Below, one piece after another: positions 14,911 to 62,331 of a DNA stretch of 64,000 nucleotides; position 1 is the first letter of the stretch, and each line of letters begins with the position of its first letter. Both the position numbers and the translations under genes were made by a program. The notes under the pieces are model-generated. The model had not been told where the DNA came from and searched no databases. It saw nothing but the letters and a program-made list of their open reading frames with translations. This DNA is from Scolanthus callimorphus (lineage: Eukaryota > Cnidaria > Anthozoa > Actiniaria > Edwardsiidae). The DNA is taken from the NCBI GenBank assembly GCA_033964015.1, contig CM066914.1:11399831-11463830 (forward strand), in the 5' to 3' direction.

Positions 14911-15001
14911 GTCAAGCGGGGATGGGTCCCAGTTGTTCTTGGCATTTTATGGCGCTGCTGTGCCATCACGTGTCAAATAGTTAACCCACATTGCCCTGCC
15001 G
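14911..15001 (+). CDS. Candidate leader exon (signal-peptide region)
   Basis: After a pyrimidine-rich acceptor (tgcttttcag) an open stretch encodes a basic start followed by a hydrophobic run (WVPVVLGILW, then a Cys-rich end) and stops at a GTAAGC donor in phase 1. That phase matches the discoidin exon at 15377, which needs two leading bases. This would suit the end of a signal peptide. The frame has no ATG and hits a stop just upstream of the acceptor, so the initiator must lie in an unseen short upstream exon. The assignment rests on hydrophobicity and splice phase only. Confidence 0.4.
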
Positions 15002-18000
15002 GTAAGCCTCAAACACCTATAATCAACCGAGAGCCTTTGCGGTCTATTAGCCAATCAGAGCAGCCGAAAAAACATTGGATCAATTTGAAAACAAAAGGTA
15101 CCAGGGCGCAAAGGCTCCCGGTCCTCTAAATTTCCTAGATTTTATATATTACAGTACATGGATGGGGGAACTAGTCAGGGCGAATTTACCCACTCGTCTG
15201 GGTATCTGGTTGGGAAGTTCACGCATGCTTTTTTGCTCGAGGGGACCGCGTTATGGAATCGTACTGAGCAAAGTCCAAAAGAAATGGACGAGGAAGTCTC
15301 GTGGTGAATTCAGACGTCCTCTCCTCTCGCATAGTGAGCTACAATCGACAGTTGTAACTCTATTTATATTTATCAGAATGTTCGGAGCCCCTTGGAATGC
15401 AAAGCGGAATTATCCCGGACTGGGCCATTACAGCATCCAGTGTCCATGCTGGAGCGGGTTACGTATTAGACTCCTCTCGTGCTCGACTAAACATAACAAG
15501 TACTAGCCAAGGTGGGACCTCCCTGGGCGGTGCATGGCGTGCCAAACAAGGAGATGGCAAGCACTGGCTAAAGGTTGACCTCCAGGATCTACACATTGTC
15601 ACTGGTTTATCGACACAGGGACGCGTCACTTACTCTCAGTTTATTACAAATTTTACTGTGAGTTATAGTAGGAATGGCGCCCAGTGGGCAACGTACGGGG
15701 ACAAGGGGAACAAAAAGGTAAGCTGGAATTATTATTTTTTTCAATAGACTTGAACTATTTTAGGCTAGAACAAAAGCCCTATTGTGTTCTCATTTTTGCT
15801 TCAGTATTTCCCGGGCAACCAAGACGCCAACACTCCTATTCATCACTCTCTTTCGCCTCCAATAGTAACGCAGTTCATCCGTGTGAACGTCGTGTCTTTC
15901 AATAATTTACCTGCTCTGAGGCTTGAACTTTACGGCTGTAACTGCGGTGAGTGATACCTGGGTGCCACAGTTTCTTGGTGTGCTTCTTATACATAGAAAT
16001 TTAGAATCCGCGGTTAAGAATGAGCGGCCATGCGGTATTATTCAACCTAACCAATAACGAAAATCCGTCATCGGAGACAAAATGACTCCATCATGCACAT
16101 GAAAACAGTAGGGTACTGGAATGCATTTTTTTTATTCTAGTATTCGTGTACTACTGATAGTTTTTACCGTGTTTAAATAAAGTGTGTATGTACATACCAT
16201 GAAGTCGTTCCAGTGGAATGGACTACCATACAGTTTTTCCCTTTTTAAGCGCGCGTGTTGGTAAAGCGTTCCATGAAATGACTGACAGCAGAATACAGAG
16301 AAAACTCGTTACTTGTACGTGGCCGGTAATGAATACAGTGAAACCCCGGGATTTTACGATATGCCACGGGGGCAGGAAAAGTGTATCGTAAAATCGGGTA
16401 TCGTTGTATCCGTTCTCCTGATTTAACGATATAAAGGCCAAACCATTGAAAATATCGTTACATCGGGGTCCGGTTAATTATACATTTCCAAGCAAAGACT
16501 GATTGTATTGCATTAATCATAATTGTAATGTTGCGAGATTCACTTTATTAAAAATATTTACTGTAAAACGAGGATACCGCGCATACAAACACATTGGTTT
16601 GGAAATCGTATGATTGCTAAAGTTTCTGTTCTCCTTTTTTTACCATACACCGGCCCCATTTATATCGTTGTAGCGGGAAAGAATTCACGCTTGGGTCCCA
16701 AGATTACCATCGTAAAATCGGGAATATCATTCGACCGAGTCTCGTTACATCGGGGTTCTGTTTCACAGAAATGTTAAAATCGGGGTTCCACTGTAGAATG
16801 CACAGAAATGTGTGATGTGATGTGATGCGAACAGGGTCTTAGCACTGTGATGTGAACAGGGACTTAGCACTGTGATGTGAATAGGGTCTTAGCACTGTGA
16901 TGTGAACAGGGTCTTAGCACTGTGATGTGAACAGGGTCTTAGCACTGTGATGTGAACAGGGTCTTAGCACTTTGATGTGAACAGGGTCTTAGCACTGTGA
17001 TTTGAACAGGGTCTTAGCACTGTGATGTGAACAGGGTCTTAGCACTGTGATGTGAATAGGGTCTTAGCACTGTGATGTGAACAGGGTCTTAGCACTTTGA
17101 TGTGAACAGGGTCTTAGCACTGTGATTTGAACAGGGTCTTAGCACTGTGATGTGAACAGGTCTTAGCACTGTGATTTGAACAGGGTCTTAGCACTGTGAT
17201 GTGAACAGGGTCTTAGCACTGTGATGTGAACAGGGTCTTAGCACTGTGATTTGAACAGGGTCTTAGCACTGTGATGTGAACAGGGTCTTAGCACTGTGAT
17301 GTGAACAGGGTCTTAGCACTGTGATTTGAACAGGGTCTTAGCACTGTGATGTGAACAGGGTCTTAGCACTTTGATGTGAACAGGGTCTTAGCACTGTGAT
17401 TTGAACAGGGTCTTAGCACTGTGATGTGAACAGGGTCTTAGCACTGTGATGTGAATAGGGTCTTAGCACTGTGATGTGAACAGGGTCTTAGCACTGTGAT
17501 TTGAACAGGGTCTTAGCACTGTGATGTGAACAGGGTCTTAGCACTGTGATGTGAACAGGGTCTTAGCACTGTGATGTGAATAGGGTCTTAGCACTGTGAT
17601 GTGAATAGGGTCTTGGCACTGTGATGTGAACAGGGTCTTAGCACTGTGATGTGAACAGGGTCTTAGCACTGTGATGTGGATAGGGTCTTAGCACTGTGAT
17701 GTGAATTAGACTGCTTGCAGCCCCTTCTCCGGCGAACGTCCGTAAATCGAGAAAAGCGTAAATCGAGAGAAATCCCGCGGCGCGCGCTTCGGTTTGTTTC
17801 AAAAGCGTAAATCGAGAGAAATCCCGCGGCGGCGCGCTTCGGTTTGTTTACAAGTGTCGAGTTACCAGGAGAGAGAGAGAGACGCGCCACTTGTAATGGT
17901 GTGTCCGCAGTCCCTTCTTTCGGCGTTTTCCCCCCGTGGCGCGTCTCTCTCTCTCTCCTGGTAACTCGACACTTGTAAACAAACCGAAGCGCGCCGCCGC

Positions 18001-21000
18001 GGGATTTCTCTCGATTTACGCTTTTCTCGATTTACGGACGTTCGCCGGAGAAGGGGCTGCAAGCAGTCTAGATGTGAATAGGGCCTTAGCACTTTGATGT
18101 GAACAGGGTATTAGCACTGTGATGTGAACAGGGTCTTAGCATTGATTTGAACAGGATTTTACACTGATGTACAGGATTTTAGCTATCGGTATTTTTATAT
18201 CCTTCTGCAGATTGTAACAAAACAGGGCACACATACGACTTAGAGTTTCGTAGAGCCGATCCCTTGAGCTACGCGCTGATGACCATACCAAATGACCAGC
18301 TGGAGCAGATAACAGCATGCTGGTGGTTCAACTCCACCCTCACATCAACAGACCAGTACCACATTTCTCTAGGCGCCCAGCACAGTGAGCCAAACGCCTT
18401 TGTTCTTGGTACAACCACAAATCACTTTATAGTGACTGTACTCGATACCGAGGTTAGGTATGTATGTGTTTTGGAAAATGCTAGAGAAGTAATCTACAGT
18501 AAACACCCACATATATAGATACCTGTTCTTGAACAGCGTTACAGTATAGGCGGGCGCAAATGTCACGCGTCAGAAAACTTTTTATAGACAAGTAAGCTAA
18601 AATGTGAACCCCAGCACTTGACAGAGCTCCCTTTAATGTGCGACTACGTAAACCGGGACATTTTGTAAGAAGTCAGCCAATCAGACAGCGAGTACAGAAC
18701 AAAGGATCTTGACTTTCTTGAGATCTTTTCTCTAAAAATCGTTTCTCTAAAAAAGAGCTTTTCTCTAAAAATTGTAAAAATTATGAGGAGAAATAACTTC
18801 AAAACACTTAATTACTCATCGTCAGTCGTATTGCAGGTATAAAAATTCTTTAAAATGGCTTGAATCTCTAATGACAAGCGGGGATGGCCCGGTTGACGAA
18901 GTCGCACAGTAATTAGTAAAACTAGCAAGTTTGAGAGCGATTGGTTTAACACGTACGAAGATATATATATATAGCCATGTAAATATTTGTAAGTGTGTGA
19001 ACATGGTATGGGATGGTAAGCTTCTAGTGGTGTGAATAGATTTTCGCTAGCTTGTTATTTCAAGACTTTAGAAATGAAATGCTCTTTCCCGTGGTATGAA
19101 AGGATTTCAGCTAAAACGCTTGTATCAAAAGCCGAATGTTTAGTGACGTTACAAATTATATGGAATTAGGCTGTTCTTACTATGCGGGTGCTTACTGTAT
19201 CTACAGGTGTGACCATGTATTTTATCTACCCAGTTAATCAATGGTTAACTTTGATTGGCTAGTGTTGGCTATTGTCTAACCCGTTCTGCTAATGGCAAAT
19301 ATCCTTTACAGGTTTCCTGTGGACGTGCAGTTACACGACGGTGTTTGGCACCATGTCTGTGTCACATGGCAAGCCTCTAATGGGAGTGCTCATATCTTTC
19401 TTAACGGTAACAAAATTAAAAGTGTCAGCAAGCCAGTCGAGTGGGCAAGTGCGATACGCGGTCAGATCAAAGCCGTACTGGGGCAGGAACAGGATTCGTT
19501 TGGGGTAGCTTTCAAGTTGTGCAAGCGTTTGATGGCCAACTGAGCCGAGTAAATCTGTGGAATTACACTTTATCTGATAACAAGATAGCTGACATGGCCA
19601 CCAAATGCACTGTCTGTGTTGAAGGGAACTTTATTCCTTGGAAAGCTTTCAAAAAACACGTTTTCGGAGGCACAAGAATTCGTGCTCAAAGTACATGTCC
19701 TCTTGGAAGAGGTAGGTGACTCTACACTTAAGAGCGTTATGGGAAACTAGTTTAAAGGGAAAAAGTGCCTGGATACTTTCCCCGAGTTATTTAACGAGTC
19801 CATTAACAGTTATGTGTGAACGCACATGCGCCGCTACCCAGTGCATAGCCTTCACAGGCATCTCTCAATAAACATCTCTGAAGCAAAAAGGAAATAGGGG
19901 GAATCGGGAGTGGGTGCAGTTGTATCTGTTGTATCAGGAATGGGTTGCCTGTGTTACGAGACCGCAGGAAGCCTGAGCGCGGAAGCAGAAGTAAAAGAAT
20001 TAGATGAAAGTCGCCCGCAGAGGAGGCTAGCTAGTACATCGGATTTAACCGGCCTAAATATTGTCGGACGTGAAAGTATGATATGGCAGACAATTTTATG
20101 ATAAAGACTCGATAATCTTCTGATTAGCTAAAAAGCAGATTTCATGAAGCCGAAGAAATAGCTTACGGCTTACCTTGCGTTAACGAATCTTATTGGTTCT
20201 GACAGTATTTGATCTTTACAGGTCGCGACTGCTTGGAACTCCTACAAAGAGGTTACCAATCCGATGGGTACTATCTCATTAATCCCGATAATAGCACGGA
20301 CGGCTACATGAACGTGTTGTGTGACCAACACACTATCGGGGGAGGCTTTGAGGTGCTTCATCGCCGCTATGACGGGTCCGTCTCTTTTTACCGAGTGTAT
20401 GACGATTACACACGTGGCTTTGGTAATGCTAATGGGGAATTTTGGTTGGGAAACAAGAAACTTGCTCGTATCACTAGGAAGTTCCAGATCCTTTTGGTTG
20501 AGCTGCAAGACGAGCAAGACGCGACTGCTTTCGCGTACTATACAAATTTACATATCAACGGCAATGATTTTTATAAAATCGAGTCTATATCGTACAGGGG
20601 AGGACTGCGGGAGATTCCATGTCAGGGTTGAAAGGCCTGCGGTTCAGAACTTATGATAATGACGCCATGAATTGCGTGACGGATAAACGCACTGCTGGTT
20701 GGGCGGACAGCTCCTGTACTATGGGGAGTAATCTGAACGGTGAATATCAGGAACGTTATAATAGCGCATCTGAGAGTCGAACAGGGATCTACTGGGAGTC
20801 CTGGAAAGGACTTACGAAATCGCTGAAGGCTGCTTCTATGAAACTGCGACGAGCAATTGGTAAGCTTGTTAGAGCTTTTGCTTCCTTTTTGCATGGCGCA
20901 GCACATTTTAAGCAGCAAGAAGCTTTTCGATGATATCTCGGAGCAGGAAACCTGGAAATACAAAGGAGAGAAACCAAAAGCACTTCAATCTTTTCGTCGC

Positions 21001-45000: not shown

Positions 45001-46050
45001 AAATCAAGTCTTATGATGCAAGCAATGTTGTGAACGACGGTAAACAGAGACCACGGATTCATGAGTGTATTTTTTAAGGTTTATAACCTACCAAATATAT
45101 AGACTGAAGATCGTAATTTTTCTCCATCTAGTTTTCGTGACGCAACTTCTCGTCAATTCTACAAACCACACGGCTGTCGATCGTATTAAGCTCACAGTCA
45201 CGTGTCCAAGTGGCGCGTCATATGACCTTCCACATGGAATCTTCAGTGGTTACCAGGTTTTTTACTCAAATACGGCAGTCTCGTCTGACAAGCATGATAT
45301 CACCTTCAGAGACAACAATGGCGGGGCTCCCCTCCTGTTGGAAGTGAAAAATCTCAAACCCTACACCACGTACGAGATCCGTGCTGGGATCAGCTCCTTA
45401 GAAGGCGAGGGTGCTCTGTCCCAGCCTATCTATGTGCAAACTGATGACGGACGTAAGTAGTCATGGAAACGCAGTAAAACTACCTTGTCTCTATATAGAC
45501 AAGGTACATGTGATTCTAGCTACATGTGATTCGAACGTAAAAAAGATCGCAAATCATATTCACGACGCGACTTTGAATATTTAAGAATACGTTAAATACG
45601 CGACCTTGAATACTTGACAATACGTTGCATACGCGAACTTGAATACAATAATTTTTCATATATACTGGCAAGAATGCTCATGGTCAGTCCACATTTTAAC
45701 AGTGCGTGAATAACTAAGGGACTTTTCTCCTTTAGCTTGTAACCTATTGCTATTGTTTGCTATAGAGATGGGTACTTTAGTGATATATAATTGGTTTGTC
45801 GCAGCTATGTTAGCAGCTGGCAAGCACAACAATAGTTCATTGTCTCCACGTTCTATAGATTCATTGTTTTTTCATTGTGCATTATCTACGGTTGCAAACC
45901 AACTGGATAAGATCTTCTAATCACACTGCAACATGGCTCATATAATTTAGAGCATATCTGGATGAATTGCGCATACTCACCGCTGTGGTCCAGGATCGAT
46001 TCCCGAGTCGTGTTCGTGGTTCATATTGTGGTTTGCACTTATTTCTACTG

Positions 46051-46087
<37 letters not shown>

Positions 46088-49000: not shown

Positions 49001-52000
49001 GTCACTTTGTATCTCTTGGTAAACAACACAAGCCTTTAGGCGAGTATGTATACCAAAGAAGAAAATGACAAGTGTGGTATTAGACATAGACATGACATAG
49101 AGTCTATGTCTAGATATAAACGGTATTCCATGGTGTTTCAGGGTTCGTACGGCTCCTGGAAAACTTGGAAACTCTTGGATTTTGATTGTACTCCTGGAAA
49201 GTCCTGGAATCTAGAACAAAGTCCTGGATGAAACTTCATCATTCACAAATTCAAGAATGTAATCATTCTAAAAATCGTTTTGATACTTGAAACGTTATCC
49301 AAAATAGACTCACGAGGCTGAAAATTATCCTGGAAAACTCCTGGAAAAATTCTGAAACAGCTCCTTAAAACTCCTGGATTTTTTCCAACTTCTGAGCGTA
49401 GAAACGCTGGGTTTTATACCACACCACAGAAACTTTACAGGGCGAAATTTTGAATAAATCATCTAGGCGCATGGCATGGTGGGACGGTGGAGTGGAATAC
49501 TGCTGAATACTAGACGGCTTACCTGCATTCTGATTGGTTCTATTGTTCGTGGTGTGGTATAAATTAAGCCACGAATTTCCGTGGTTTATAAAGTGATAAA
49601 CGCACGAGGGATGCTGGAAAACACGAGAAAAGTTTGAAACTCGAGCCGTAGGCGGCTTTGTTTCAATGTCACACTCTTTGCGCTAAAACTGAAAATATCT
49701 TTGTTTTTCCAGCACCAAGTAAGCCTCCACAAAATGTTTCAGCGCGCAACGCAAGTTCTTCAAGCCTTGTCATTAGGTGGAGGCCTGTAGAACCGCTATG
49801 GCTTAACGGTTTGTTACGAGCGTATACTGTCATCTACTGCGAAACGGCGAACCCCGAGACTACAAAAAAAAACGTGACAAAATGGTGCGTATTGCTTTGC
49901 ATGTAGTTTCTTATAGACTACAATGTCATGGTAACTCTTTCCAACTCGACTGTTAGCATCGAACCAACAGTTACCGCACCACAAACGTACTCATATCTTC
50001 TATCCGGTTTTCGTCAGGTTATCCGGTTCAAGACGAAGGAGACGTGCAGTAACAAGTGGCGACTCGAGTGTGGAGATCACGGGTCTTAAGAAATACACTC
50101 AGTACAGTGTTCAGGTGTTGGCCGTGACGGTGGCTAACGGAGTTCCCAGCATCGCATTTAACGTGACTACAGGCGAAGATGGTAAGTTGGAGTTCGATAT
50201 AAACCATCCAGAACAAGATTTAAGAATCCCTTCAAGAAGCCCGCCACTCCTTCACGCACGGGTTACAATCTAGCAACAAGTGACATCTTTAAATAGATGT
50301 CAAAAGCGTTCATTTGATACCCGTTTCACTTGGTCCAAAGGGCGGTGCAATGAAACCGATTTTTTCAGGTCTTGGCTCATGGACTATTGAACAAGCGAGT
50401 ACACACACTCAACTTCTTGGCTCGTGGACTATTGAACAAGCGAGTACACACACTCAACTTACTAGTTCGATGAAGAGAATTCCTTGACTAGAACTCGCAT
50501 TATTCATATCTCTAGTTCCCGACAGCCCCCCTAGTAACGTGTCAGCACACAATCTGAGCTCCACCTCAATCCAGGTCCTCTGGGCACCGGTACCACAGGA
50601 ATACCGTAACGGCATTATACGAGGGTACAAAGTCCAGTACAAAGGAGTTGGTAAAACAGAAGCTGTACAGAGCATCACTATTAGTGACGCTACGCAGCTG
50701 AGTACCGTGATCTCTGGACTGAAGAAATACGGCGAGTACGAGATTAGTATATTGGCCTTCACTGTGATTGGAGAGGGAAATGGATCAGTTCCGGTGTACA
50801 CCCGCACAGCTGAAGATAGTGAGTTGTGATTTCGTGTTTTTCACTTGCTAACGCTTTCTGGTAAGTAAGTTAACTGTTGTCCTTCTTCCCAATAGTCCCA
50901 GACAGTTTTCCAGTCAACATAACATCCCTCGGAACATCCTCAACTGAAGTGACACTCAACTGGCTTGCCATGTCAGCGGAACACGAGAATGGAATCATCC
51001 TTGGTTATCGCGTCCGTGTCTACGAGATGAGTGGCGCGCTAAAGAAGAATCACACAGCCCCTGGTGGTACTAGGAGTATAGTGATAGGCGGTCTGGACGT
51101 CTGGACTAATTATACTGTCACCCTATGTGCATACACTAGCTTTGGGACTGGGCCGTGGAGTCCGTCACAGCGCGTCATCACAGATGAGGAAGGTAGGCTC
51201 ATCGCATACAAATTCCACCCTCATCCGACATCTTGCCTTCCCTGTGGCTGATTCCAGTCTGCAGATTCCAGGTTAATTGTACTAACAAAAGATCCCTCTT
51301 TTCGTATAGTACCTCGAGATCCCCCTGGAAATGTAACCGCGACGTTCATCAATTCTACTTCCATCCGAGTCCAGTGGAACCCTGTGAATGCGTCCGTCAC
51401 TCGCGGTATCCACCGCGGTTACCGCGTCTATTACCGCGCCTCCAACACTCCCTTTACCATTATACTACTTTCTGTAACCGTGGGTGCGGCTCAGACGGGA
51501 GCTGTACTAGTGGACCTATACAAATACGTGAGGTACTCCATATATGTGGTGGCATTTACCGTTAACGACGGGACACCAAGCGATGTTAAAAGCATCTATA
51601 CGGACCAGGACAGTAAGTAACTCATCTATACTGACCAGGACAGTAAGTACTTCATCTATACTGACCAGGACAGTAAGTAACTCATCTATACTGACCAGGA
51701 CAGTAAGTAACTCATCTATACTGACCAGGACAGTAAGTAACTCATCTATACGGACCAGGACAGTAAGTAACGCATCTATACGGACCAGGACAGTAAGTAA
51801 CTCATCTATACGGACCAGGACAGTAAGTACTTCATGTTCTTTTTGTTATAGTCAAGCTCGAAAGAACAACTTAATCCTGTAAAACGCAATCCTGTGCAAA
51901 GTCATGGAATTTAATCGGTGCTTTCTTGTGTGAGCCCTGTATATAAGAGTTTCCAATGTACTTGGCAAATAAGTCGAAAATATTGTCGCCAACTCATCGA

Positions 52001-55000
52001 TTAACGTTGGTGGTGTTGACAGTTGAAGAGCTGAGAAGTTTTGGTCGCCTGCTCAGAGTTTACATCGCTTGTTCTATTAGTCACCTTAATAACATTCTGC
52101 TCGCAATATAGATGATGTTCTCCTTAGTAATGTCTTGCCATGTGATCAACTCTTTTTCTACTTCACGTATCCATGGTCATCTTTCATCTCATTTGCAGAT
52201 CCAGATCGCCCTCCTTCCCACATCGCCTTTGCTTTACCAACGCCGTACGCAATAGTGGTGTCATGGGATCCCGTGCCATATGGCTACACGAATGGCATCA
52301 TATTGGGTTATAAGATCACTTGCTCGGCCGGTTACATGACGGACGTCCGGTCCTTATTCCCTGATAATAGTCTTGTCCGGTTTGATGGCCTCCGTAGTTA
52401 TCAGCTGCATAACGTAACTGTGAGGGCGTATACTGTCAAGGGGGAGGGTGCCGTGTACAGACAAGAGATTATGACTGATGAGAACAGTGAGTATGATGAC
52501 TACAACCGCTTGTGTGTTAAATCGTGGATGCCGCCGTGGCTTTGGAATTGCTCTCCTCTAGTCATGGTTATAAAAGACCATACGCCAATTTCGTTTCATA
52601 TCTTTCCTCGCAGACCCTTGTCTGTCTCCCCAACACCTTCGTGCCGATAACCACACCAGCACGCACTCTTTACCGGTCCTTTGGGGTCCTATCCCGTCCT
52701 ACTGTGTGCTTGGAATCCTGCTGGGATATCGAGTCCGTTACACTCCGCTCACAACCGGCGAAATCAAGATGAGTAGCGCCCGTGCTACCGAGCTCCTTGT
52801 CGGACCCAACACACTGAGTATTGTGCTGACGGGTCTGCAGATCTTTACGTATTATCGTATTGAAGTCGCGGGCTACACTTCCAAGGGGGAGGGCCGTTCG
52901 CCGTTACCTTTGGAGGTGAGTGCTGATATCGCATCTTATTATATAGACACGAGTGTTTTACTGGGAAATACGCCACTCGTAGATCTCATACGAAGCTACA
53001 TCCGGTCCTCAGTGACATATTTTCCATATCCTCACTAGTGAGGATATCGGTCAAAACAAAAGTGCTTGGAAATCAATTTGGAATACTTTTTTCTGGTTTG
53101 TCTATATAATAAAAAGAAAATTACACGGTGGCTTGAAGATATGAGTTTTATTTTCTCGTGTCAAAAACAATATTTTACTCATTCGCGCATCGCGCCACCG
53201 TGTAATATCCTCTATATATTCTATCATGGTCTATCGTCTTGTATACACCTATTTCAAAAACAGGTTGCTTTGGGAATTGGTTGTCGAGCGCCATTGTTTG
53301 GTGGTCGCTCAAAGAATCCCATCTTTGTATTCAAGGCTCCAAAGGCAATGTTTATTGAATTAGTTATCTCGTATCCTGTCGAGCCATTACACAAACCATC
53401 TTTTCCAGAGACGTGCCGATGTGAGAAGCGCTTATCCACAAACTGGATGGAATTCGCGCCTTATGTGTCGTACAACGACTCCAAGTTGGGTGGAATTATT
53501 CCTGACGTTCTCGAGAACATGACCATCTACTGCTGTCAAACCTGCAAGAGTCACGGCCAATCCTATGTGGACTTCAAACTCGACGGGTCCGGGAAATCCT
53601 CGCAGAGACTCCACCCTCCCGCACTCCGCGCTACTATTGATGGCAGCACGGATCTGATATTCCCCATTGCCGGCTACCTTTACCAGGAGGAGTACAAGAC
53701 GACACACGCGTACGCAGGCATGGTACAGACAGCTGGAGTAGCCTTCTTGTTGTCCTTGAACAACAAAGTGATGGAACTGGCGAGCTATTCGGTTTTTAAT
53801 GCTGTCACTGATAACTGGCCATTGGTGTTGATATGTTTCTCCTCAGCTTACATTATGGGCTGTGTCGTCTGGTTTTTGGTGAGTAGCATCATATTTCTCA
53901 TAAATGTATTTGAACATTATTCATTTGGATAGTCACTCTCACTTCAAATTACACAATGAGTTATATCAAGCTATAAATAGCATTACATTTAGCGTGGAAG
54001 CTTCTTCCTTCATTTTGGGTGCTATTTTGTTATTTGCCTCATTTACACATGCAAATGACGATATGATAGAAGTACGTTTGATATAGAAAATACTTTAAGT
54101 AATAGCAGATGCTGCGGACATCTATCCCCTGTGGAGAATAATATTTTGATGACTTGTAATTTTATTAGGATGCTGGTAACGAAGAGTTTCCAAGGTCTTT
54201 TATCGCGGGCTCAATGGAAGGCTTCTGGTGGGCCTACGTTTCTATGACAACCGTTGGGTAAGTAACGGATGGAGAAATAAGATGCTCATCCAATCAAATA
54301 TCCAGAATAGCCACAGTTAACCCTGGGATAGTGCTATAACTGGCTTTCTAGGAACCGGCTCCTGGGCGTCTGCTAGTGCGCTCTTCCTGTATTTTTTGTC
54401 GCTACCATCGTTGCTTTTGTATATTTGTTTATTGCTGTTGAGGATGGCAGCTCGTTCCATACTACCCGCTACGCATACGTCTTTTTGTTGTGATTGTTCT
54501 TCTTGTTTGTTCTGCCGCGCTTATTGTATATTCTACTGCGTCTTTGTTGTTCGTGTATAGCTTGTTGTTGTGGTATTGGTTGTTTTTGTTGTTGTATTAC
54601 TAGTGCTGTTATCGATATCTTGCAGGTATGGTGACCGCAGCCCTAACTCCATCTTGTCGCGTCTAGTGGCGATCGCGTGGACGCTGTCAGGAGTGATAGT
54701 CATCGGTCTATTAGTGGGAAGCATCGCCACCTCCCTCTCGACTATCTCAATAAAACAGGCCGACTCGCTCTACGGAATGAGGGTACGCAATTCATTATAA
54801 CCAATTTCCGCAAAGCAGGCAAATTAACCCTGTCTGCAATTGACAACGTAGAATAGGCCAGTGACATAGGCAGTATTTGACGACCATTTATATAGTGATA
54901 GCCCAGTTAATTCTTCCCTTCACTAGTTAATATATTTGTCATCCAGAGGATCACCCACTTACATCGTGTGGTTCTATCGTTATGTCCTGATCTTAGTTAG

Positions 55001-57373
55001 GATCGTACTGCCCTTTGCTAAACATACTCCTGTACGTTTCGACTACTAAGCAGAATCTTCATGGTGCAGCACACCTTGAGTTGTTCATTGCCATTCATTA
55101 CCATTCATTGCCATTCATTACCATTCATTACCATTCATTGCCATTCATTACCATTCATTGCCATTCATTGCCATTCATTACCCTTCATTACCATCTGACT
55201 TCAGGTCGCAGCCTTGCCTAACACCTACGAGTACCGATTTGGGCAGCGACGAAATGCCATCATGGATGTCGGTAAGATCGCCATATTGGCGTTACATTGA
55301 CGCAAAGAAGATTTCTGCGTAAACAATCATTAAATATAGTGTTTTAACCAAAACAGATCACCAGATATATAACATCTTTTGGTGGTCTTTTCATAGGTTT
55401 TAGTTTTTGGGCATTTAAGTTAATAATGGAACAATTAAGCATAATATTCGGGAACATAATCACCTGACACTTTGAACTAACCGTTGTGACTAAACTCTGA
55501 ATGCGCGGGAGGTCGAACACTCGTGCACTGCGTCATGCTGTGTGAGCGCGTACCTCTCGCTGATTTTACTCCGAATAGGACTGGGTCTAGTTCACTCGAC
55601 ATTTCGGCAAAGATAGCTGTTTCTTGATACATCGCACGTCGTATGTATATATTTTTTTAGATATAATTCGCATTAGGTCATATTTCTTTCTTTTCTCTGT
55701 TTCAGGTCGTGTTTACAATAGCTACGAAAAGGTGTACGAAGACTTGGTCAGCGGTTACGTGGGCGGTGCTTTGCTGGACTCGTTAGCCCTGGGTTCTAGA
55801 AAAGATCTGTTCGAAAAGCCGTTCATCCGCGTGCACAAGGTCTACGATGTCGCCTTCGTGCGCGGGGTCGTCATGACTGGAAACTCAGTCAAACTCAAAA
55901 GATGCTTTAATGGTTATCTTGCAGCCAACGCGCAGGGCATCTCGAACCGCGTGAAAGAGGCGTCGGATTCTATAAAGGTAAAATGAGAATGGTGTCGTGG
56001 AAATTCAATAGAGCAGTAATTCCTGGTGAGAAAAGCATACCAACACATCTGGAAGGCTTATTGATAGTTTACCTAACCAATCCATTAACATTCAACAAAA
56101 TCAGCTGTCCCACATGCACCAACTTTGATATTTGGGTAGTCCATCATTCATGGTGGTTGCTCAACGAGCTTTCATCTTGTGAAATATGATATGGAAGTGA
56201 ACTTTCTTAAATCAAGTTTCAAATGATCGATGTTCATCTATTAAAACGTCAGACGAGGTGACCTGTATGCGCACAAGAGTCAACAAGCAGCTCTCGCACA
56301 TGAAGCAACTTAGACATGTGGTAGGTATATGACGTTTGGTGATGCATTAATTGCTCACAACGGCACAATGGGAGTCGTAATGTTACCATCTCATCTCTAT
56401 AACTCATCTCGATTAGGTTCATACCCTCGCTTACTTTTGAAACATGCACTGGCAACTCTGCCCACCTCTGAGATTTCAAATTACATGTCATAAGTTTCTT
56501 TAGCCTACATCTCCCTGAAGAGATTTTTAAACTTGATTGTATTGTTTCAGGTACCCAGTGATCCCCTAGCAACAGAACTGTCGTCGTCTCTGTTCCAGTA
56601 CGATAGCAAGCTCTTCCAAACCGTACTTGTCTGTACCGTCATCATGTTGAGTGTGGCAATGCTATTCGGTTTATTGTGGGAAGTCATTTACAAACGAAAG
56701 AAACAGAGGCTTCTACAAAATGGTACGTTGGGAATTATTAGCTTTAACTTTTACATTTTAGTTTTAGCAACCACAAACAGGTTTTTTTTCAGAATAAAAC
56801 ATAATGTTCCCTTCATAGGCTCCACGCCAGTCAGCTCAATACTGAGGGTTTTTTTTGATGCCATCATGACCATGCAGTTTCGTGTTCAAAAAGAATCCCC
56901 CTTGCGAGCAGGGTAACGTTCGGGCTCAACGAACGTCTAAAAATGGGGGTGTCTGGTCGTTTAAAAAGCCGTGTTCCTAGGCGTGTTCATAGATGGTTTA
57001 ATCAGTGTGAACTCGTTTCATCTCTTCACAGCAAAGTTTGACTGGACGATTTGTTTATTTGTTTCTAGATACTGAAGAAAACAAATACTTAAAGAACTTA
57101 CGTGAGGAAATGCAGATGTTGGTGCACGAATTCTATGATGGATTGACATCTGTTCTGAGAACACTACAAGAGAAGCACCGCCAAGAGAAAAAGAGATGCG
57201 TAGAGGTGCTTGTAGCAAGAAGAAGGCTTGAAAAGAAACTACAAGAACAGCAAACCTTGCCCAAGCAACGCAAAGGCATACGATTTGCACCAAGACGAAA
57301 ATATATGTTAACTAAAGGAATTTGTGGTCCTGGTCCTGAAAGGCCTCGTGAGACCACAGAAAGCAGTGCATGA
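14911..57373 (+). CDS. Giant mosaic adhesion receptor fused to an iGluR-like K+ channel (about 44 exons)
   Basis: One plus-strand gene is inferred by chaining exons whose GT-AG sites and phases agree. Exons: 14911-15001, 15377-15717, 15805-15946, 18211-18457, 19312-19711, 20222-20859, 21065-21290, 21505-21893, 22807-23031, 23597-23830, 24212-24538, 24714-24931, 28588-28750, 29069-29505, 29665-30076, 32173-32398, 32770-32890, 34047-34691, 34871-35149, 35528-35638, 37733-37962, 38355-39025, 41473-41588, 43864-43928, 44918-45039, eleven FN3 domains to 52915, then 53409-57373. Total coding is about 11.9 kb. Ectodomain modules have phase-1 borders. The product should be a cell-surface protein with lectin-like, LamG, SEA and FN3 modules outside, a four-segment channel core and a cytoplasmic tail. 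The starting Met exon was not found. About nine apparent 1-base deletions interrupt the frame. It could be two adjacent genes, but phase continuity and the lack of any terminator or start between SEA/FN3 and the channel favour one. Confidence 0.72.
15377..15946 (+). CDS. Discoidin / F5-8 type C domain (2 exons)
   Basis: Exons 15377-15717 and 15805-15946 give a complete discoidin domain. It opens with CSEPLGMQSGIIPD, matches the family's ITASS and W-x-VDL segments, and closes with FIRVNVV and LRLELYGC. The two Cys at the ends form the usual linking pair. Donors are GTAAGC and GTGAGT, and the inner junction is phase 0. Discoidin domains bind glycans, phospholipids or matrix proteins. As the N-terminal module it would be the outermost adhesive head. 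The reading frame is clean. Confidence 0.9.
16332..16797. mobile_element. Pogo/Tc1-like MITE with TA target site
   Basis: Starts TA-CAGTGAAACCCCGGGATTTTA and ends with the inverted form near 16770-16797 (AAAATCGGGGTTCCACTG-TA). Internal 'tcgtaaaatcggg' fragments recur. CAGT-GAACCCCG termini with TA duplication fit Tc1/mariner-pogo elements. It lies in the discoidin-pentraxin intron. Confidence 0.65.
16806..18170. repeat. 25-bp minisatellite interrupted by a foldback element
   Basis: About 36 copies of gtgatgtgaacagggtcttagcact run to 17706, with recurrent variants (gtgatTtga, aaTagg, actTtga). A foldback element occupies 17707-18070, after which degenerate copies continue to about 18170, just before the acceptor at 18210. 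Confidence 0.92.
17707..18070. mobile_element. MULE-like foldback element 1, 9-bp TSD
   Basis: Perfect or near-perfect inverted arms start TAGACTGCTTGCAGCCCCTT and extend beyond 100 bp, including aaatcgagaaaagcg and gagagagaga tracts. It is flanked by GATGTGAAT at 17698-17706 and 18071-18079. Because the host is a tandem array, the flanking repeat could in principle pre-exist, but the array unit is 25 bp and the copies abut the element exactly. No ORF for a transposase. Confidence 0.75.
18211..19711 (+). CDS. Pentraxin / concanavalin-like domain (2 exons, frame break)
   Basis: Exon 18211-18457 starts DCNKTGHTYDLEF and contains ITACWWFNSTL, as in the first half of pentraxin/LamG jelly rolls. 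Exon 19312-19711 contains the diagnostic second half: DGVWHHVCVTW, ngsahIFLNG, an LGQEQDSFGG-like strand and QAFDGQLSRVNLWNYTLS. The junction is phase 2 (codon AGG). At 19502-19505 the frame shifts: the run of four G must be five for the LGQEQDSFGGSFQ reading. The QAFxGxL and NLW motifs on either side make the intended frame clear. The domain would fold as a beta sandwich that may bind Ca2+ and ligand in the ectodomain. Confidence 0.82.
20222..20859 (+). CDS. Fibrinogen-related domain (FReD), single exon with a frame break
   Basis: One 638-nt exon (phase 1 to phase 1) encodes most of a FReD. Seen in order: CLELLQRGYQSDGYYLI, VLCDQHTIGGGFEVLHRR, DGSVSFYR, the core GFGNANGEFWLGNKKL, then LKGLRFRTYDNDAMNC, NLNGEYQERYN and a SLKAASMKLR end. 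FReDs are lectin-like recognition domains of ficolins, tenascins and similar proteins. Around 20602-20603 the frame breaks between KIESISYRG and the expected AGDSMSG segment. One base is missing, or two are extra, in a G-rich stretch. No splice site can explain the shift. Both halves are otherwise well conserved. Confidence 0.88.
21065..21893 (+). CDS. Second pentraxin/LamG-like domain (2 exons)
   Basis: Exons 21065-21290 and 21505-21893 join in phase 2 (codon CTG). The first half has YALSFSGTSSKDYILYD and a strand-rich FFMCASIKT segment. The second half has the W-G-H-ICFTRR motif, WFLFLDGKF, GALMLGQVPDQEG and an AFAGQITGINL strand, as in pentraxins and LamG domains. It ends with a short linker. 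The donor at 21894 (GTAATC) is weak but keeps phase with the next exon at 22807, giving ATA across the junction. The reading frame is clean. Confidence 0.75.
22807..23031 (+). CDS. N-terminal half of a LamG-type domain
   Basis: A 225-nt exon, phase 1 at both ends, encodes a linker and then NGYVDLGDYEGTC, LCFGGITVSLWMRHG. That is the opening of a LamG/jelly-roll fold up to its first core strand. The second half (usually W-x-H-x-x followed by an NG turn) is not found before the next recognised exon at 23597, which is in phase. Either the intron has lost that exon or the module is a remnant used as a spacer. Confidence 0.6.
23597..24538 (+). CDS. TLDc domain 1 (2 exons)
   Basis: Exon 23597-23830 encodes LHSRILDNERF, then WRLCYRASRHGRDPATFH, CDEASVTLTLIR and YVFGGMLDVSW. 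Exon 24212-24538 encodes AFLFSLRNPQG, PFKLDI, the GPVFGLNDLHLG turn, and ends DEIEVFAHY. Together they make a complete TLDc domain, known from OXR1, NCOA7 and TBC1D24 and found in many cnidarian mosaic proteins. The intron lies just after VFGG...SW in phase 1, the same loop where the second TLDc copy (34047-35149) carries an inserted FTP domain. TLDc proteins are mostly intracellular, so the ectodomain placement is unusual. Confidence 0.85.
24714..28750 (+). CDS. Unassigned beta-rich module (2 exons around a minisatellite intron)
   Basis: Exon 24714-24931 and exon 28588-28750 are in phase 0 with each other and are separated by a 3.6-kb intron filled with the 34-bp array. Visible strands include TLQIQCC, CVKIFILKTS, STWMDYP, then VDLLPHIKHKYIKFIATAC and CCLSFDII. 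The alternating hydrophobic pattern, the W-x-x-Y motif and the two Cys clusters resemble a discoidin-like or jelly-roll fold, but no family was recognised. Splice sites are good (ttttctgcag, GTATAA, tctctag, GTAAGT). Confidence 0.6.
25005..25345. mobile_element. Non-autonomous TIR element, same family as 3490-5450
   Basis: Ends are inverted: ggttaccagagtccggggga...ggatgctcgtcggg on the left and cgacgagcacccgggaccag on the right. Internal ggtaccagaggccagatttt and accccctaaaaggtacc blocks match the left half of the 3.5-kb element in reverse. Confidence 0.65.
25345..28200. repeat. 34-bp minisatellite, about 82 copies, with inverted flanks
   Basis: The unit is ATCGCGGCGTCTTGACTTAA followed by CGTGTATCAGTAAA (34 bp), repeated from about 25394 to 28166 with very few changes, mostly at two positions (gActtaA, gGcttaA, gGcttaG). 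Flanks are inverted copies of each other: ccagagtctccaagctacac at 25341 and gtgaagcttggagactctgg at 28179. The array lies in an intron of the mosaic gene. Confidence 0.95.
28786..28835. repeat. (GTGACC)n hexamer repeat
   Basis: About eight perfect gaccgt units in an intron. Confidence 0.9.
29069..29505 (+). CDS. LamG-like domain (single exon, frame break)
   Basis: The exon encodes TGFSLSY, then ILGSATGAYTLVV, W-x-HLAFTWTRHDLSLYINGVLL, LRIGADSS and LRIKDLRIWDNYFTPKEM, matching the second half of LamG/LamGL domains. At 29146-29151 six A follow TAC. Seven would keep the two halves in frame, and as written a TAG follows. The donor is GTATAA in phase 1. Motifs are well kept on both sides of the break. 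Confidence 0.75.
29665..30076 (+). CDS. Fucolectin-type (FTP / F5-8C-like) domain, two apparent frame breaks
   Basis: The exon reads QNVAYAKTA (the NVALGKxA start of fucolectins), SWNRNDAQNPVKG, the core YWQVDLADLYLVSDVIIVN, HDFRILVS, LSCGG, a C-PPILGRHVAIQ segment and the closing LCAVEVYG. This is the eel-fucolectin/tachylectin-4/pentraxin-1 type. Two acceptors nine bases apart (29664 and 29673) give the same frame. To join them with the conserved core, one A is missing near 29682-29684 (tentative) and one near 29714-29717. Donor is GTAAGG in phase 1. It probably binds sugars. Confidence 0.78.
30195..32165. repeat. About 60-bp minisatellite, roughly 33 copies, acceptor-like units
   Basis: The unit runs cctggctacgtgtttgtgaa, ctcatcccctcatcctttt, ctctctcaaaggtttacgtcc (57-61 bp). 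Each copy ends in a pyrimidine tract followed by AAAG/GT, resembling a 3' splice site. Long ORFs through it are repeat translations. It lies between the FTP exon and the truncated MAM exon, and its final unit serves as the acceptor region of that exon. Confidence 0.93.
32173..32890 (+). CDS. C-terminal part of a MAM domain (2 exons, frame break)
   Basis: Exon 32173-32398 has TRTCFSFYYRMNGSYQ then VYSSGY, LLWRVAGYHD, VWQLGRVAI and NYQ. Exon 32770-32890 has VIIEAID, YDGEIAFENITLTDDVNC. This is the classic MAM order CxxFxYxMyG, W, F-x-G, DIAxDDI. The first 50-60 residues of a MAM domain are absent: upstream there is only the 60-bp tandem array, whose last unit supplies the pyrimidine tract of the acceptor. 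At 32270-32271 AA must be AAA to keep frame (DALNVYSS). The final donor, GTACAG at 32891, abuts a MITE. Confidence 0.75.
32894..33318. mobile_element. Pogo-like MITE abutting a splice donor
   Basis: Starts CAGTAAAAACCCGCCTGTAA and ends with the inverted form (TTACAAGCGGTTTTTTTTACTG), flanked by TA at 32892-32893 and 33319-33320. Its first bases are positions +4 onward of the GTACAG donor of the MAM exon. Confidence 0.75.
34047..35149 (+). CDS. TLDc domain 2 split by an inserted FTP lectin domain
   Basis: Exon 34047-34691 starts with a TLDc N-half: YWVRCYGALEQGWNASVLH, CDNKKPLLVLIREGSYLFGAF. Without an intron it runs on into a complete FTP domain: AYKRPAAQSSDYN, the core WLRVDLMAEVLVYKIFIRN, FEIRIG, CGG, CDPAIRGRYVSI and QLKVFG. 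Exon 34871-35149 then resumes the TLDc C-half: KAFIFTLHGKN, VKLSVRPNESD, GLLFGAHDLTVD, and VFQASDVEVLTIGG. The insertion point is the loop after FGG/FGA, where TLDc copy 1 has its intron. Frames are clean and outer borders are phase 1. Confidence 0.82.
35395..35630. repeat. 111-bp tandem duplication of acceptor plus EGF-like exon
   Basis: Positions 35395-35505 and 35506-35616 are near identical (one aat/gat difference seen). Each contains the ccccctcccctag acceptor and the Cys-rich exon body. Confidence 0.92.
35528..35638 (+). CDS. Small EGF-like exon with an upstream duplicate
   Basis: A 111-nt exon, phase 1 at both ends, encodes LCDPPCLEGEYCDEMLGMCICDD. The C-x3-C-x5-C-x6-C-x-C pattern is EGF-like. 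Its donor is GTATGT. A near-identical copy lies exactly 111 bp upstream, with acceptor at 35416 and coding-like sequence from 35417. That copy lacks a good donor and meets TAA right after the GATGTC codons, so the downstream copy is the usable exon. Confidence 0.7.
36021..36326 (+). mobile_element. 3' end of a non-LTR retrotransposon (CR1/L2-like)
   Basis: The frame 36021-36203 reads MEDEKHFMLNCKMYDEKRRTF, the EDExHFLxxCxxYxxxR motif typical of the C-terminus of LINE ORF2, then a stop. AATAAA at 36297-36302 is followed by a (ATATC)n tail. The element is severely 5'-truncated and is an intronic fossil. Confidence 0.7.
37219..37405. mobile_element. Foldback MITE
   Basis: Left arm gcaataaaagtactttccgt, gtgctctctg, cttacaaacac pairs with the right arm gtgtttgtaagaaaccagag, agcacgcagaaagtattttt. 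Confidence 0.65.
37733..37962 (+). CDS. Cysteine-rich linker exon (frame break)
   Basis: After the acceptor cacag the exon encodes DDYCALQCGSICSSPPCKPC, then ARFDVKLNTVVKN. Near 37849-37852 the frame must gain one base to continue as RCYVEDSLTGDRQRYNTTKN and then DADLRALGQG, up to the GTACGT donor in phase 1. The seven or so Cys suggest a small disulphide-bonded module, not assigned to a family. Sequence beyond 37962 in the same frame is polypurine intron, not coding. Confidence 0.6.
38001..38095. repeat. Polypurine (GGA/GAA) tract
   Basis: About 95 bases almost only G and A, directly downstream of the donor at 37963. It inflates an apparent ORF on both strands. Confidence 0.9.
38125..38241. 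mobile_element. Small TA-flanked MITE
   Basis: TACCGCAGTTACTCGAATAA at the left and the inverted TTTCGAGTAAATACAGTA at the right, with an inner 'cgaataagc' repeat and aataaacgccgcgg. Confidence 0.6.
38355..39025 (+). CDS. LamG-like domain (single exon, frame break)
   Basis: The exon encodes LLYWPADSEIDF, GNAVAFNGSGEPLVLLP, CKPGLTIALWIRF and SQVFFSTQSS, then in another frame AVSVSKRNIQLL, GIWTHIAFTYINNPILRVYRDGEAV, VTLGEMGSGLPDASIDDVMIFFRRLQDTEI and a GTGCGT donor in phase 1. This is the LamG/Laminin_G_3 architecture (SLxxWP...W-x-HIAxTY...IDDVMIFxRxLxxxEI). Both frames stay open between 38680 and 38757, so the single-base shift lies somewhere there. Confidence 0.8.
39026..41472. other. Long intron, no exon recognised
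   Basis: Between the last LamG exon and the SEA exon, both phase 1. Short ORFs on either strand show no domain. An undetected small phase-1 exon cannot be excluded. Confidence 0.4.
41473..45039 (+). CDS. SEA domain (3 exons)
   Basis: Three exons, 41473-41588, 43864-43928 and 44918-45039, join in phases 0 and 2 and together encode a SEA-like module: ANLVVNSTFRTTSPWSDAFND, KAMEAE, then IKTAYGSQLSSNVRSYKLTRFW, then QRSGNVAFEYVVRLSKTG. The RSGNVAFEYVV segment matches the family's RxGSVxVxxxv strand. SEA domains sit near membranes in mucin-like receptors and often self-cleave at GSVVV. Here the site is SGNVAF, so autocleavage is doubtful. The first intron holds the 31-bp minisatellite and a MULE-like foldback element. 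None of the three exons is long enough to stand out as an ORF. Confidence 0.75.
42238..43600. repeat. 31-bp minisatellite, about 44 copies
   Basis: The unit acacaaggtctagtagagtc + atgctcatcag is repeated with few changes. Two units carry an 8-base deletion (agacatctagtag). The array ends at a MULE-like foldback element. It lies in the SEA intron. Confidence 0.95.
43601..43825. mobile_element. MULE-like foldback element 2, 10-bp TSD
   Basis: Left arm TAGACTGCTAGCAACCCCTA, ctttggcgcgtccccagagaagcg pairs with the right arm ending cgccaaagtagggattgcta. It is flanked by ATGCTCATGC at 43591-43600 and 43826-43835. The end motif AGACTGCT(T/A)GCA(G/A)CCCCT is shared with the element at 17707. The SEA acceptor lies about 35 bp past it. 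Confidence 0.75.
45132..52915 (+). CDS. Eleven fibronectin type III domains
   Basis: Exons 45132-45452, 46505-46803, 47258-47548, 48102-48392, 48592-48888, 49713-49884 with 50018-50181, 50516-50818, 50896-51192, 51310-51612, 52199-52486 and 52614-52915 each encode one FN3 domain (one is split, phase 2). All show the family pattern P-x-x-P..., a central W, NGI-x-x-GY-x-V-x-Y, then L-x-x-Y-x-x-Y-x-x-x-V-x-A-x-T and a TAEDG-type end. Outer borders are phase 1, so exons could be skipped or duplicated without shifting frame. In the second domain CC at 46774-46775 must be CCC. NxS/T sequons are frequent. The array forms a rigid stalk between the SEA domain and the channel. Confidence 0.9.
47640..48050. 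mobile_element. Two adjacent MITEs with TACACCTAATTCA-type ends
   Basis: Unit A: gtatacacctgtttcaatca, acgttgctctgcgaaacgt at 47645, with its inverted copy ending at about 47907. Unit B: tgtacatcaatttcaaaaag, gttgcaccgtcgcaaatgtctg at about 47900, inverted at 48000-48045 (caacctttcttgaattaggtg). Relatives lie at 28225, 53250, 59868 and 61250-61378. Confidence 0.65.
51591..51832. repeat. 30-bp array of eight exon-end/splice-donor copies
   Basis: The end of an FN3 exon (atctatacggaccaggaca) with its GTAAGTA donor is repeated eight times at exactly 30-bp spacing (donors at 51613, 51643, 51673, 51703, 51733, 51763, 51793, 51823). Most units carry an in-frame TAA after the donor, so the first donor keeps the frame; two units read TAC instead. 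Confidence 0.93.
52920..53215. mobile_element. Palindromic element next to the last FN3 donor
   Basis: It contains the palindrome ATATCCTCACTAGTGAGGAT at about 53026-53047 and inverted attacacggtggc / gccaccgtgtaat at 53122 and 53197. It starts within a few bases of the donor at 52916. Confidence 0.55.
53409..56722 (+). CDS. iGluR-like channel core with K+ selectivity filter (6 exons)
   Basis: Exons 53409-53878, 54169-54257, 54626-54782, 55205-55271, 55706-55977 and 56551-56722. Order: S1 lobe (MEFAPYVSYND, GGIIPDVLENM, STDLIFPIAGYLYQEEY), M1 (WPLVLICFSSAYIMGCVVWFL), pore loop FWWAYVSMTTVGYGDRSP, M3 (LVAIAWTLSGVIVIGLLVGS), S2 (YEDLVSGYVGGALLDSLALG, FIRVHKVYDVAFVRG) and M4 (TVLVCTVIMLSVAMLFGLLW, then a basic stop-transfer). 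This is ionotropic glutamate receptor topology with a K+-channel filter, as in bacterial GluR0 and rotifer AvGluR1. The usual ligand-carboxylate Arg aligns by eye with Gln (codon 53684); the S2 acidic residue is kept as Asp (55777). The first acceptor is CCAGAG; only the second AG (exon from 53411) matches the phase-0 donor at 52916. Frames are clean. Confidence 0.87.
55083..55192. repeat. 10-bp repeat ccattcatt(a/g)
   Basis: About eleven units in the intron just upstream of the acceptor at 55204. Confidence 0.9.
57069..57373 (+). CDS. Cytoplasmic tail and stop codon of the channel gene
   Basis: The last exon enters in phase 1 after tttctag. It encodes a charged segment rich in Glu, Lys and Arg with heptad-like spacing (YLKNLREEMQMLVHEFYDGL, then LQEKHRQEKKRC, ARRRLEKKLQEQQ) and ends in a Pro/Gly-rich tip before TGA at 57371-57373. 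As it follows M4 it should lie inside the cell, probably as a coiled coil. A 346-bp tandem duplication repeats its 3' two thirds at 57505-57719. A possible polyadenylation signal AATAAA is at 58069-58074. Confidence 0.8.
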
Positions 57374-57850
57374 CTTTAGAATGGACATACGAAAACTTTG
57401 TAACAAATGCTGAATCCTAAGAGGATGTGTCCCAGAACGTTATAGCGGAGCCGGCCCCTGGTTACTACCTCCAGTGTTATTGTTGTTGTTGTTGTTGTAT
57501 ATACGAACACTACAAGAGAAGCACCGCCAAGAGAAAAAGAGATGCGTAGAGGTGCTTGTAGCAAGAAGAAGGCTTGAAAAGAAACTACAAGAACAGCAAA
57601 CCTTGCCCAAGCAACGCAAAGGCATACGATTTGCACCAAGACGAAAATATATGTTAACTAAAGGAATTTGTGGTCCTGGTCCTGAAAGGCCTCGTGGGAC
57701 CACAGAAAGCAGTGCATGACTCCTGGCTTCTTTAGAATGGACATACGAAAACTTTGTAACAAATGCTGAATCCTAAGAGGATGTGTCCCACAACGTTATA
57801 GCGGAGCCGGCCCCTGGTTACTACCTCCAGTGTTGTTGTTGTTGTTGTTT
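57159..57850. repeat. 346-bp tandem duplication of the final exon and 3'UTR
   Basis: Sequence from 57159 (gaacactacaagagaagcac) repeats from 57505, including the stop codon and the following UTR to a (TTG)n tract. The second copy differs at few positions (a GAG to GGG codon change, a short insertion after the stop). It has no usable splice acceptor in front, so it is probably UTR. Confidence 0.93.
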
Positions 57851-62063: not shown

Positions 62064-62331
62064 GACCATTTAGCCAGAAAGAGTTTATATCACAGTAAGA
62101 AACTTGATGTGAGGTCAAGAAAAACCTTTAAATAAACATGGTTTAAGTACTATTTACAATATGAAACTGCAGTCTACGGAATACAATTCCAAGGTTAAAT
62201 AAATCAAAGGTCTCAAAGCCAGCCCTAGAGGGACACACCCTCTAAGCAGTGGTTTAATGTCATCAAAAAGATGCATAATATTGTTTGTTTGCTATTACCG
62301 ATTATTTTATACTTCTGTAATTCGACAGACG

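Follow-up and report, generated by a model that had tools for sequence, protein, structure and literature searches.

The analyzed window is a 64,000-nucleotide stretch of the Scolanthus callimorphus genome (C4:11399831–11463830). Its plus strand contains one predicted gene, which spans 14.9–57.4 kb (42 kb) and in which adhesive domains and an FN3 array are joined directly to a channel core similar to that of ionotropic glutamate receptors (iGluRs). Judging by its relatives, the encoded protein would be about 4000 residues long. The features are listed below by position in the window; P0002 and P0003 are predicted Nematostella proteins and P1 is the neighbouring paralogue.

14911–15001 (+): probable signal-peptide exon, read from the sequence; it ends in phase 1 and the start of P0003 is similar by eye
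15377–15946 (+): F5/8 type C (discoidin) domain, exons 15377–15717 and 15805–15946 (PF00754, 5.5e-15, first exon; P0003 34–192)
18211–19711 (+): pentraxin domain, exons 18211–18457 and 19312–19711 (PF00354, 8.2e-8 on 19507–19710; colinearity with P0003)
20222–20859 (+): fibrinogen C-terminal domain (FReD; PF00147, 1.5e-29 and 7.4e-12)
21065–21893 (+): pentraxin/LamG-like domain, exons 21065–21290 and 21505–21893 (Laminin_G_3, 3e-4, below cut-off; P0003 785–975)
22807–23031 (+): LamG-like segment (P0003 981–1058)
23595–24538 (+): first TLDc domain, two exons, colinear with P0003 1060–1248, which holds a TLD match at 1072–1243
24716–28752 (+): second F5/8-like domain, interrupted by an intron that carries a 34-bp satellite; limits approximate (ORF reading; second half found in P1)
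29120–30076 (+): LamG exon and F5/8_2 (fucolectin-type) exon (F5_F8_type_C_2, 5.5e-5, below cut-off; P0003 1403–1650)
32097–32909 (+): MAM domain, colinear with P0003 1645–1779, which holds a MAM match at 1674–1766
34047–34691 (+): start of the second TLDc and an F5/8 domain in one exon (PF07534, 5e-8; PF22633, 2e-14; PF00754, 5.1e-11)
34871–35149 (+): conserved segment (39% identity over 64 residues in P1), by its position presumably the second half of the second TLDc
35528–35638 (+): EGF-like exon (EGF_2, 0.019, below cut-off; P0003 2090–2126, 65%)
37705–37958 (+): conserved exon (P0002 2082–2160)
38355–39025 (+): LamG domain (Laminin_G_3, 5.9e-8; P0003 2197–2439)
41473–45039 (+): SEA-like segment, exons 41473–41588 and approximately 44919–45039 (first half found in P1; second half compared with P0003 by eye)
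45132–52915 (+): eleven FN3 domains, mostly phase 1-1 exons (fn3 Pfam matches and splice phases)
45132–45452, 46505–46753 or beyond, 47258–47548, 48102–48392, 48592–48888 (+): FN3 nos 1–5
49713–49884 with 50018–50181 (two exons), 50516–50818, 50896–51192 (+): FN3 nos 6–8
51310–51612, 52199–52486, 52614–52915 (+): FN3 nos 9–11
53121–53206 (no strand): non-coding MITE-like element with inverted ends (by eye), read from the sequence, within the intron that separates FN3 no. 11 from the core
53409–53878 (+): core exon 1, with the TCRC linker, S1 and M1; phase 1 acceptor, 78% identical in P1
54169–54257 (+): core exon 2, pore helix and TTVG; the donor is in phase 2, inside the Gly codon
54626–54782 (+): core exon 3, YGD and M3
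55205–55271 and 55706–55977 (+): core exons 4 and 5, S2 (P0003 3878–3985)
56551–56722 (+): core exon 6, M4
57069–57373 (+): core exon 7, basic cytoplasmic tail and stop

These domains, their order, coordinates and joining to the core had been proposed in a preliminary description of the window, and they were borne out by the Pfam matches, the colinearity with P0003 and the continuous phase of the core exons. Ten N-terminal exons were tested singly against Pfam: six exceeded the cut-off, two matched a fitting family below it, one matched only an unrelated family below it and one had no match. Taken alone, the segment 18213–18455 gave no pentraxin match and the second exon of the first TLDc gave no match in Pfam, and a start codon was not located at the exon 14911–15001. 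The SEA assignment is weak (0.0068, below the cut-off, with a match to only one, from P0003, of the three Nematostella segments examined). The fn3 family was matched in all ten FN3 exons tested, nine of them above the cut-off, with the two-exon FN3 no. 6 left out of this count.

The introns hold large tandem arrays at 16,821–17,705 (25 bp), 25,395–28,167 (34 bp), 30,302–32,165 (61 bp) and 42,243–43,598 bp (31 bp), and perfect inverted repeats with arms of 76 and 90 nt are located at 17,707–18,070 bp inside the 25-bp array. A 111-bp tandem duplication (35,394–35,620 bp, 98% matches) lies over the EGF-like exon, with a near-identical copy at about 35,417–35,505 bp. In addition, a 30-bp tandem repeat of about eight copies (51,593–51,829 bp) is built from the terminal part of the FN3 no. 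9 exon together with its splice donor, and its copies are possible competing donors. The tail of the last coding exon and its stop occur again at 57,414–57,716 bp, about 340 bp downstream (96% identity over 73 residues); it may serve as an alternative last exon or have arisen by local duplication. An open frame at 62,203–62,658 bp on the plus strand contains a Roadblock/LC7 domain (1.1e-14) and likely belongs to the next gene.

A search with the full-length query revealed that Nematostella proteins are the nearest named relatives of the window gene. P0003 (4005 aa) produced 37 colinear HSPs with the window at 15,373–55,956 bp, covering 82% of residues, and the colinear cover was 79% for P0002 and 92% for a further Nematostella protein, P0001 (2624 aa). 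Only 26% and 18% of the octocoral proteins P0004 and P0005 (Dendronephthya) were aligned to the window. The giant proteins of both genera are predicted proteins from computed gene models. In searches of the S. callimorphus genome itself (597 Mb, 302 contigs), 40 of the 43 exon queries were placed in P1, which lies tail to tail with the window gene, in the same order (tau 1.00), while three remoter paralogues received 21, 18 and 22 of the 43 queries (tau 0.72, 0.79 and 0.84).

The joint between stalk and core was considered separately. At nine of twelve loci, the window counted, FN3 immediately precedes core exon 1, and no FN3 lay within 1.5–2.5 kb upstream of this exon at the other three. The motif TCRC opens the core after the last FN3 in nine of the ten proteins checked, octocoral proteins and P0007 (Porites) included. 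In place of the junction 52,915–53,411 suggested earlier, the four paralogues compared all support an acceptor at position 53,409, in phase 1, as the conserved one. In the window, the donor at 52,915 is put out of phase by a frame break where FN3 no. 11 ends; in P1, the donor ahead of the core acceptor is in phase (both judged by eye). A case for two adjoining genes, namely an adhesion protein (14.9–53 kb) and a small K+-filter iGluR-like channel (53.4–57.4 kb), could be built on this phase mismatch at the strongest donor of FN3 no. 11 in the assembled window, on the MITE-like element and on the stand-alone cores of about 530 aa present in many cnidarians. However, nine predicted proteins from two anthozoan subclasses carry FN3 and the core together, TCRC opens nine of the ten cores checked, the phase 1 acceptor is shared by all four paralogues and preceded by an in-phase donor in P1, and the tree described below parts FN3-fused cores from small ones. 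A division into two genes at 45–53 kb is contradicted by single Nematostella and Dendronephthya predicted proteins that cross this point and by the common TCRC motif. We reject the two-gene split in view of the colinearity and the shared TCRC joint and give it almost no chance.

The exon linkage had been described as in phase throughout, which holds for the seven exons of the core, whereas about seven single-base frame breaks were found elsewhere in the gene. Six were found by comparison with the five giants and the seventh (FN3 no. 2) by eye; they lie near 19.5 (pentraxin), 20.6 (FReD), 32.26 (MAM), 37.84, 38.7 (LamG), 46.78 (FN3) and 52.88 kb (FN3). P1 showed three breaks and P4 a single one, and P2 and P3 were free of them; P2–P4 are more distant and were covered in this comparison by less than half or about half as many bases. 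Such counts would suit a family member that has recently decayed into a pseudogene. Against this, each tested break fits the loss of one base, with some queries adding whole codons, and no in-frame stop was found in the 2876 codons compared between the window and P1. The dN/dS values for the same pair were 0.20 for the core (466 codons), 0.33 for FN3 (930 codons) and 0.31 for the N-terminal part (1480 codons). For each exon, only the best local match was used. The comparison excluded FN3 no. 2, the first exon of the 38.4-kb LamG, the first half of MAM, the second F5/8 and SEA, and the P1 stretch does not reach the first F5/8. Purifying selection on the window gene is evident in the codons compared. 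Breaks near runs of at least four equal bases (5 of 11 versus 23% of control places) are only in mild excess. Since dN/dS is 0.20–0.33 and no in-frame stop separates the window from P1, the frame breaks are more likely assembly errors than decay, and we consider a pseudogene improbable.

The core consists of seven exons in continuous phase, which encode 509 aa. Three transmembrane peaks were found and the filter lies between the first and the second, which gives the order S1-M1-P-M3-S2-M4; the segments flanking the pore align across the family. Pfam matches of the window core were Ion_trans_2 (1.4e-11), Ion_trans (5.4e-8) and Lig_chan (PF00060; 0.0026), the last at 18.0 bits against a cut-off of 30.8 bits, i.e., below it. 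In alignment A3, which comprises 25 small proteins, P0006 and P0007, Lig_chan matched 26 of the 27 members at E ≤ 1 (best 2.9e-10), P0008 exceeding the cut-off. The best profile matches of the pore of the core were K+ channels. A filter of the form T-x-G-Y-G-D is present after the pore helix; it is TTVGYGD in the window and invariant in this form in all 25 rows of alignment A1. In the window and in P1–P4, the codon of the filter glycine is split by an intron at one common place, and P2 and P4 carry TTLGYGD.

A profile of S1 and S2 without the pore was compared with PDB. The top matches were NpGluR0 (0.0024) and Synechocystis GluR0 (0.0085; two sequences), followed by an ancestral periplasmic binding protein (PBP; 0.011); the top four were all weak and lay over S2. 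No Pfam ligand-domain family was matched by the S1S2 pieces, and an HHalign comparison of the core with one iGluR of the same genome as a single template was not significant. A Pfam family of the LIVBP-type N-terminal domain was not found in P0002, P0003 or P0004, and in the window S1 is preceded directly by FN3. A GluR0-type build is suggested by the GluR0 matches and an S2 aspartate, with a clamshell for which the statistical proof is weak. A Kv-type channel with unrelated flanks, in whose favour the K+-channel matches of the pore profiles would speak, was also considered and rejected; S1, S2 and M4 and the GluR0 matches of the pore-less profile argue for an iGluR-like build.

In iGluRs, an S1 arginine binds the ligand carboxylate and an S2 acidic residue binds the ligand amine. 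The S2 aspartate was present in all 31 rows with residues at this place and by eye matches the motif WDSAVLEY of an iGluR of the same genome. Where the iGluR carboxylate site would be expected, the window has no arginine, the correspondence being by eye. Two places after the FPxxG glycine, 8 of the 16 giant rows have a basic residue (Arg in three, Lys in five; site correspondence by eye), and the window and its closest kin have none. As the carboxylate-binding arginine is not conserved, glutamate is an uncertain ligand. The core might be an ordinary K+ channel gated by an amine or amino acid in the clamshell, the giant ectodomain serving only to anchor or localise it. The invariant aspartate, the basic residue of half of the giants as a possible stand-in for the iGluR arginine, the GluR0 ligand domains as best PDB match and the small relatives without such a head are all in line with this, while the lack of the basic residue in the window and its closest kin and the large, varied and retained heads speak against it. 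We regard such a channel as possible but somewhat unlikely.

The full-length query was scored on the core alone among candidates of 0.55–1.75 of its length (the 2135 sharing most words). It retrieved at least five proteins, namely those of Nematostella with 2624, 4311 and 4005 aa and of Dendronephthya with 4957 and 5535 aa, each carrying FN3, F5/8, MAM and K+-channel domains. An octocoral-protein query added a fourth Nematostella protein and three further Dendronephthya proteins, of which two contain thrombospondin-type-1 domains. In the last row of this search, P0045, which has no FN3, the match covers just 10% of the query. The build with FN3 upstream of the core, proposed for a search in other cnidarians, was found in predicted proteins of Nematostella (LOC5510390, LOC5513116, LOC5514077, LOC5501224) and Dendronephthya (LOC114525810, LOC114531613, LOC114517402, LOC114525803, LOC114524674), all publicly annotated as "uncharacterized". 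Like the window gene, these anthozoan giants unite an FN3 array with the same core in a single predicted protein, and most share several head modules. Nine giants have six to thirteen FN3 matches each. Unlike the window, P0043 and P0044 of Dendronephthya have the thrombospondin-type-1 domains beside FN3 and the core, hinting at an exchange of heads, and P0044 has the filter STVGYGD and lacks TCRC.

The core-alone query (7999 candidates of similar length) revealed at least 35 proteins; many are unnamed, and those with an organism name are all cnidarian. The named sources are Acropora, Porites, Pocillopora, Stylophora, Montipora, Nematostella, Actinostola, Actinia, Rhopilema, Clytia and Hydractinia. 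Small proteins of about 530 aa bearing this filter are thus known from corals, anemones, jellyfish and hydrozoans. One small K+-filter protein of Rhopilema is labelled as an NMDA receptor subunit. The small proteins P0008–P0034 resemble the window in core order, TTVGYGD and the S2 aspartate, but they have about 460–550 aa and no such ectodomain and fall outside the FN3-fused group in the tree. We know of no name for them. The preliminary description had cited bacteria and rotifers for K+-filter iGluRs; these receptors are known from there, but are not confined to them, as small ones are spread through cnidarians. In the tree of 32 cores, 16 giant-type cores of hexacorals and octocorals were placed on one side of a branch with a support of 100/100; these 16 include P0006 of Acropora (a model without FN3) and a P2 row that is partly chance sequence after M3. 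The simplest reading of these sequences would be one fusion before the hexacoral–octocoral split.

The first core exon had 36 matches in the S. callimorphus genome at E ≤ 1e-3 (the window, duplicate contigs and split matches included), and 30 of them begin at the first or second residue of this exon. Three family members, P2, the window gene and P1, are located side by side at C4:11340001–11537000, the latter two being inverted to each other. The silent-site difference between the window and P1 is below 9% in the second TLDc exon (24.2 kb), the TLDc-F5/8 exon and FN3 nos 6 (second half), 7, 10 and 11, while many of the neighbouring exons differ by 60–90%. Such near-identical patches among diverged neighbours suggest gene conversion between the inverted window and P1 copies.

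The best reading of these sequences is that the family comprises anthozoan adhesion receptors with a predicted K+-conducting GluR0-like core. The window gene would encode a giant receptor of this kind, in which binding by the head most likely gates a K+ conductance; we assign this a probability of roughly 0.55. The extracellular head of lectin- and adhesion-type modules would stand on the stalk of eleven FN3 domains, joined by the short cysteine-containing TCRC linker to the core, i.e., a putative split S1/S2 clamshell, two pore helices, an inverted loop with TTVGYGD, a third transmembrane segment (M4) and the basic cytoplasmic tail. If iGluRs are a guide, four subunits may form one pore. By binding a cell surface, glycan or matrix, the head would, by itself or jointly with a small ligand, determine the clamshell state; the K+ conductance would then open and the cell would hyperpolarise. 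A rival reading is a mechanically gated tether, where the channel is tugged by the FN3 stalk once the head has been fixed in place. The multiple FN3 matches of all nine giants and the position of the eleven FN3 domains of the window directly before the core would suit it, but FN3 stalks are common in static adhesion receptors too, and we find a tether quite doubtful.

If head binding gates the channel, a lectin-rich head of about two thousand residues, an FN3 stalk and a K+-filter pore would make a direct contact-to-voltage converter, and this protein may serve to translate contact or the recognition of glycans into an electrical response. Only tentatively can this be extended to a recognition-receptor multigene family, unlike the described classes and dating from before the hexacoral–octocoral split, in which exchangeable heads on a shared FN3-plus-K+-channel base, with sequence exchange between neighbours, would couple contact, glycan or self–non-self recognition to hyperpolarisation; taken as a whole, we consider it rather unlikely. 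The named Nematostella genes are now open to tests of contact sensing, cnidocyte control and allorecognition by ion flux. In addition, the wide distribution of K+-filter iGluR-like proteins in cnidarians bears on the origin of glutamate receptors from K+ pores.

Adhesion and ion conduction are usually divided between partner proteins. In polycystin-1, too, a membrane protein belonging to a channel complex bears a giant adhesive ectodomain; its modules and channel are different and there is no K+ filter. The claim of a previously undescribed receptor class stands insofar as titles and abstract openings of the open-access literature, a scope outside which most subscription journals fall, do not describe this architecture and the proteins are listed only as "uncharacterized"; the same build is, however, already present in public proteins of other anthozoans. 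The available parts of two surveys of animal iGluRs (PMC12226733, PMC6307864) mention no cnidarian receptor with a K+ filter, and one of them notes the K+-channel-like filter of GluR0. In the accessible portions of the sources, the K+-filter iGluRs named are GluR0 and AvGluR1 (PMC12332018) and a synthetic GluA1-Kcv chimera (PMC6385376). The rotifer AvGluR1 is described as having a K+ filter and the architecture of eukaryotic iGluRs (PMC12332018); like the window protein, it is an animal iGluR-type protein with a K+ filter, a likeness taken from this description and not from sequence. The bacterial GluR0 proteins (Slr1257, NpGluR0) have a split PBP-type ligand domain around a K+-filter pore, as proposed for the window protein, and share with it the absence of an LIVBP N-terminal domain; GluR0 is the best, though weak, PDB match of the pore-less profile. 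GluR0 is described as having neither M4 nor any N-terminal domain (PMC6385376), whereas the window protein has M4, a cytoplasmic tail and a giant ectodomain.
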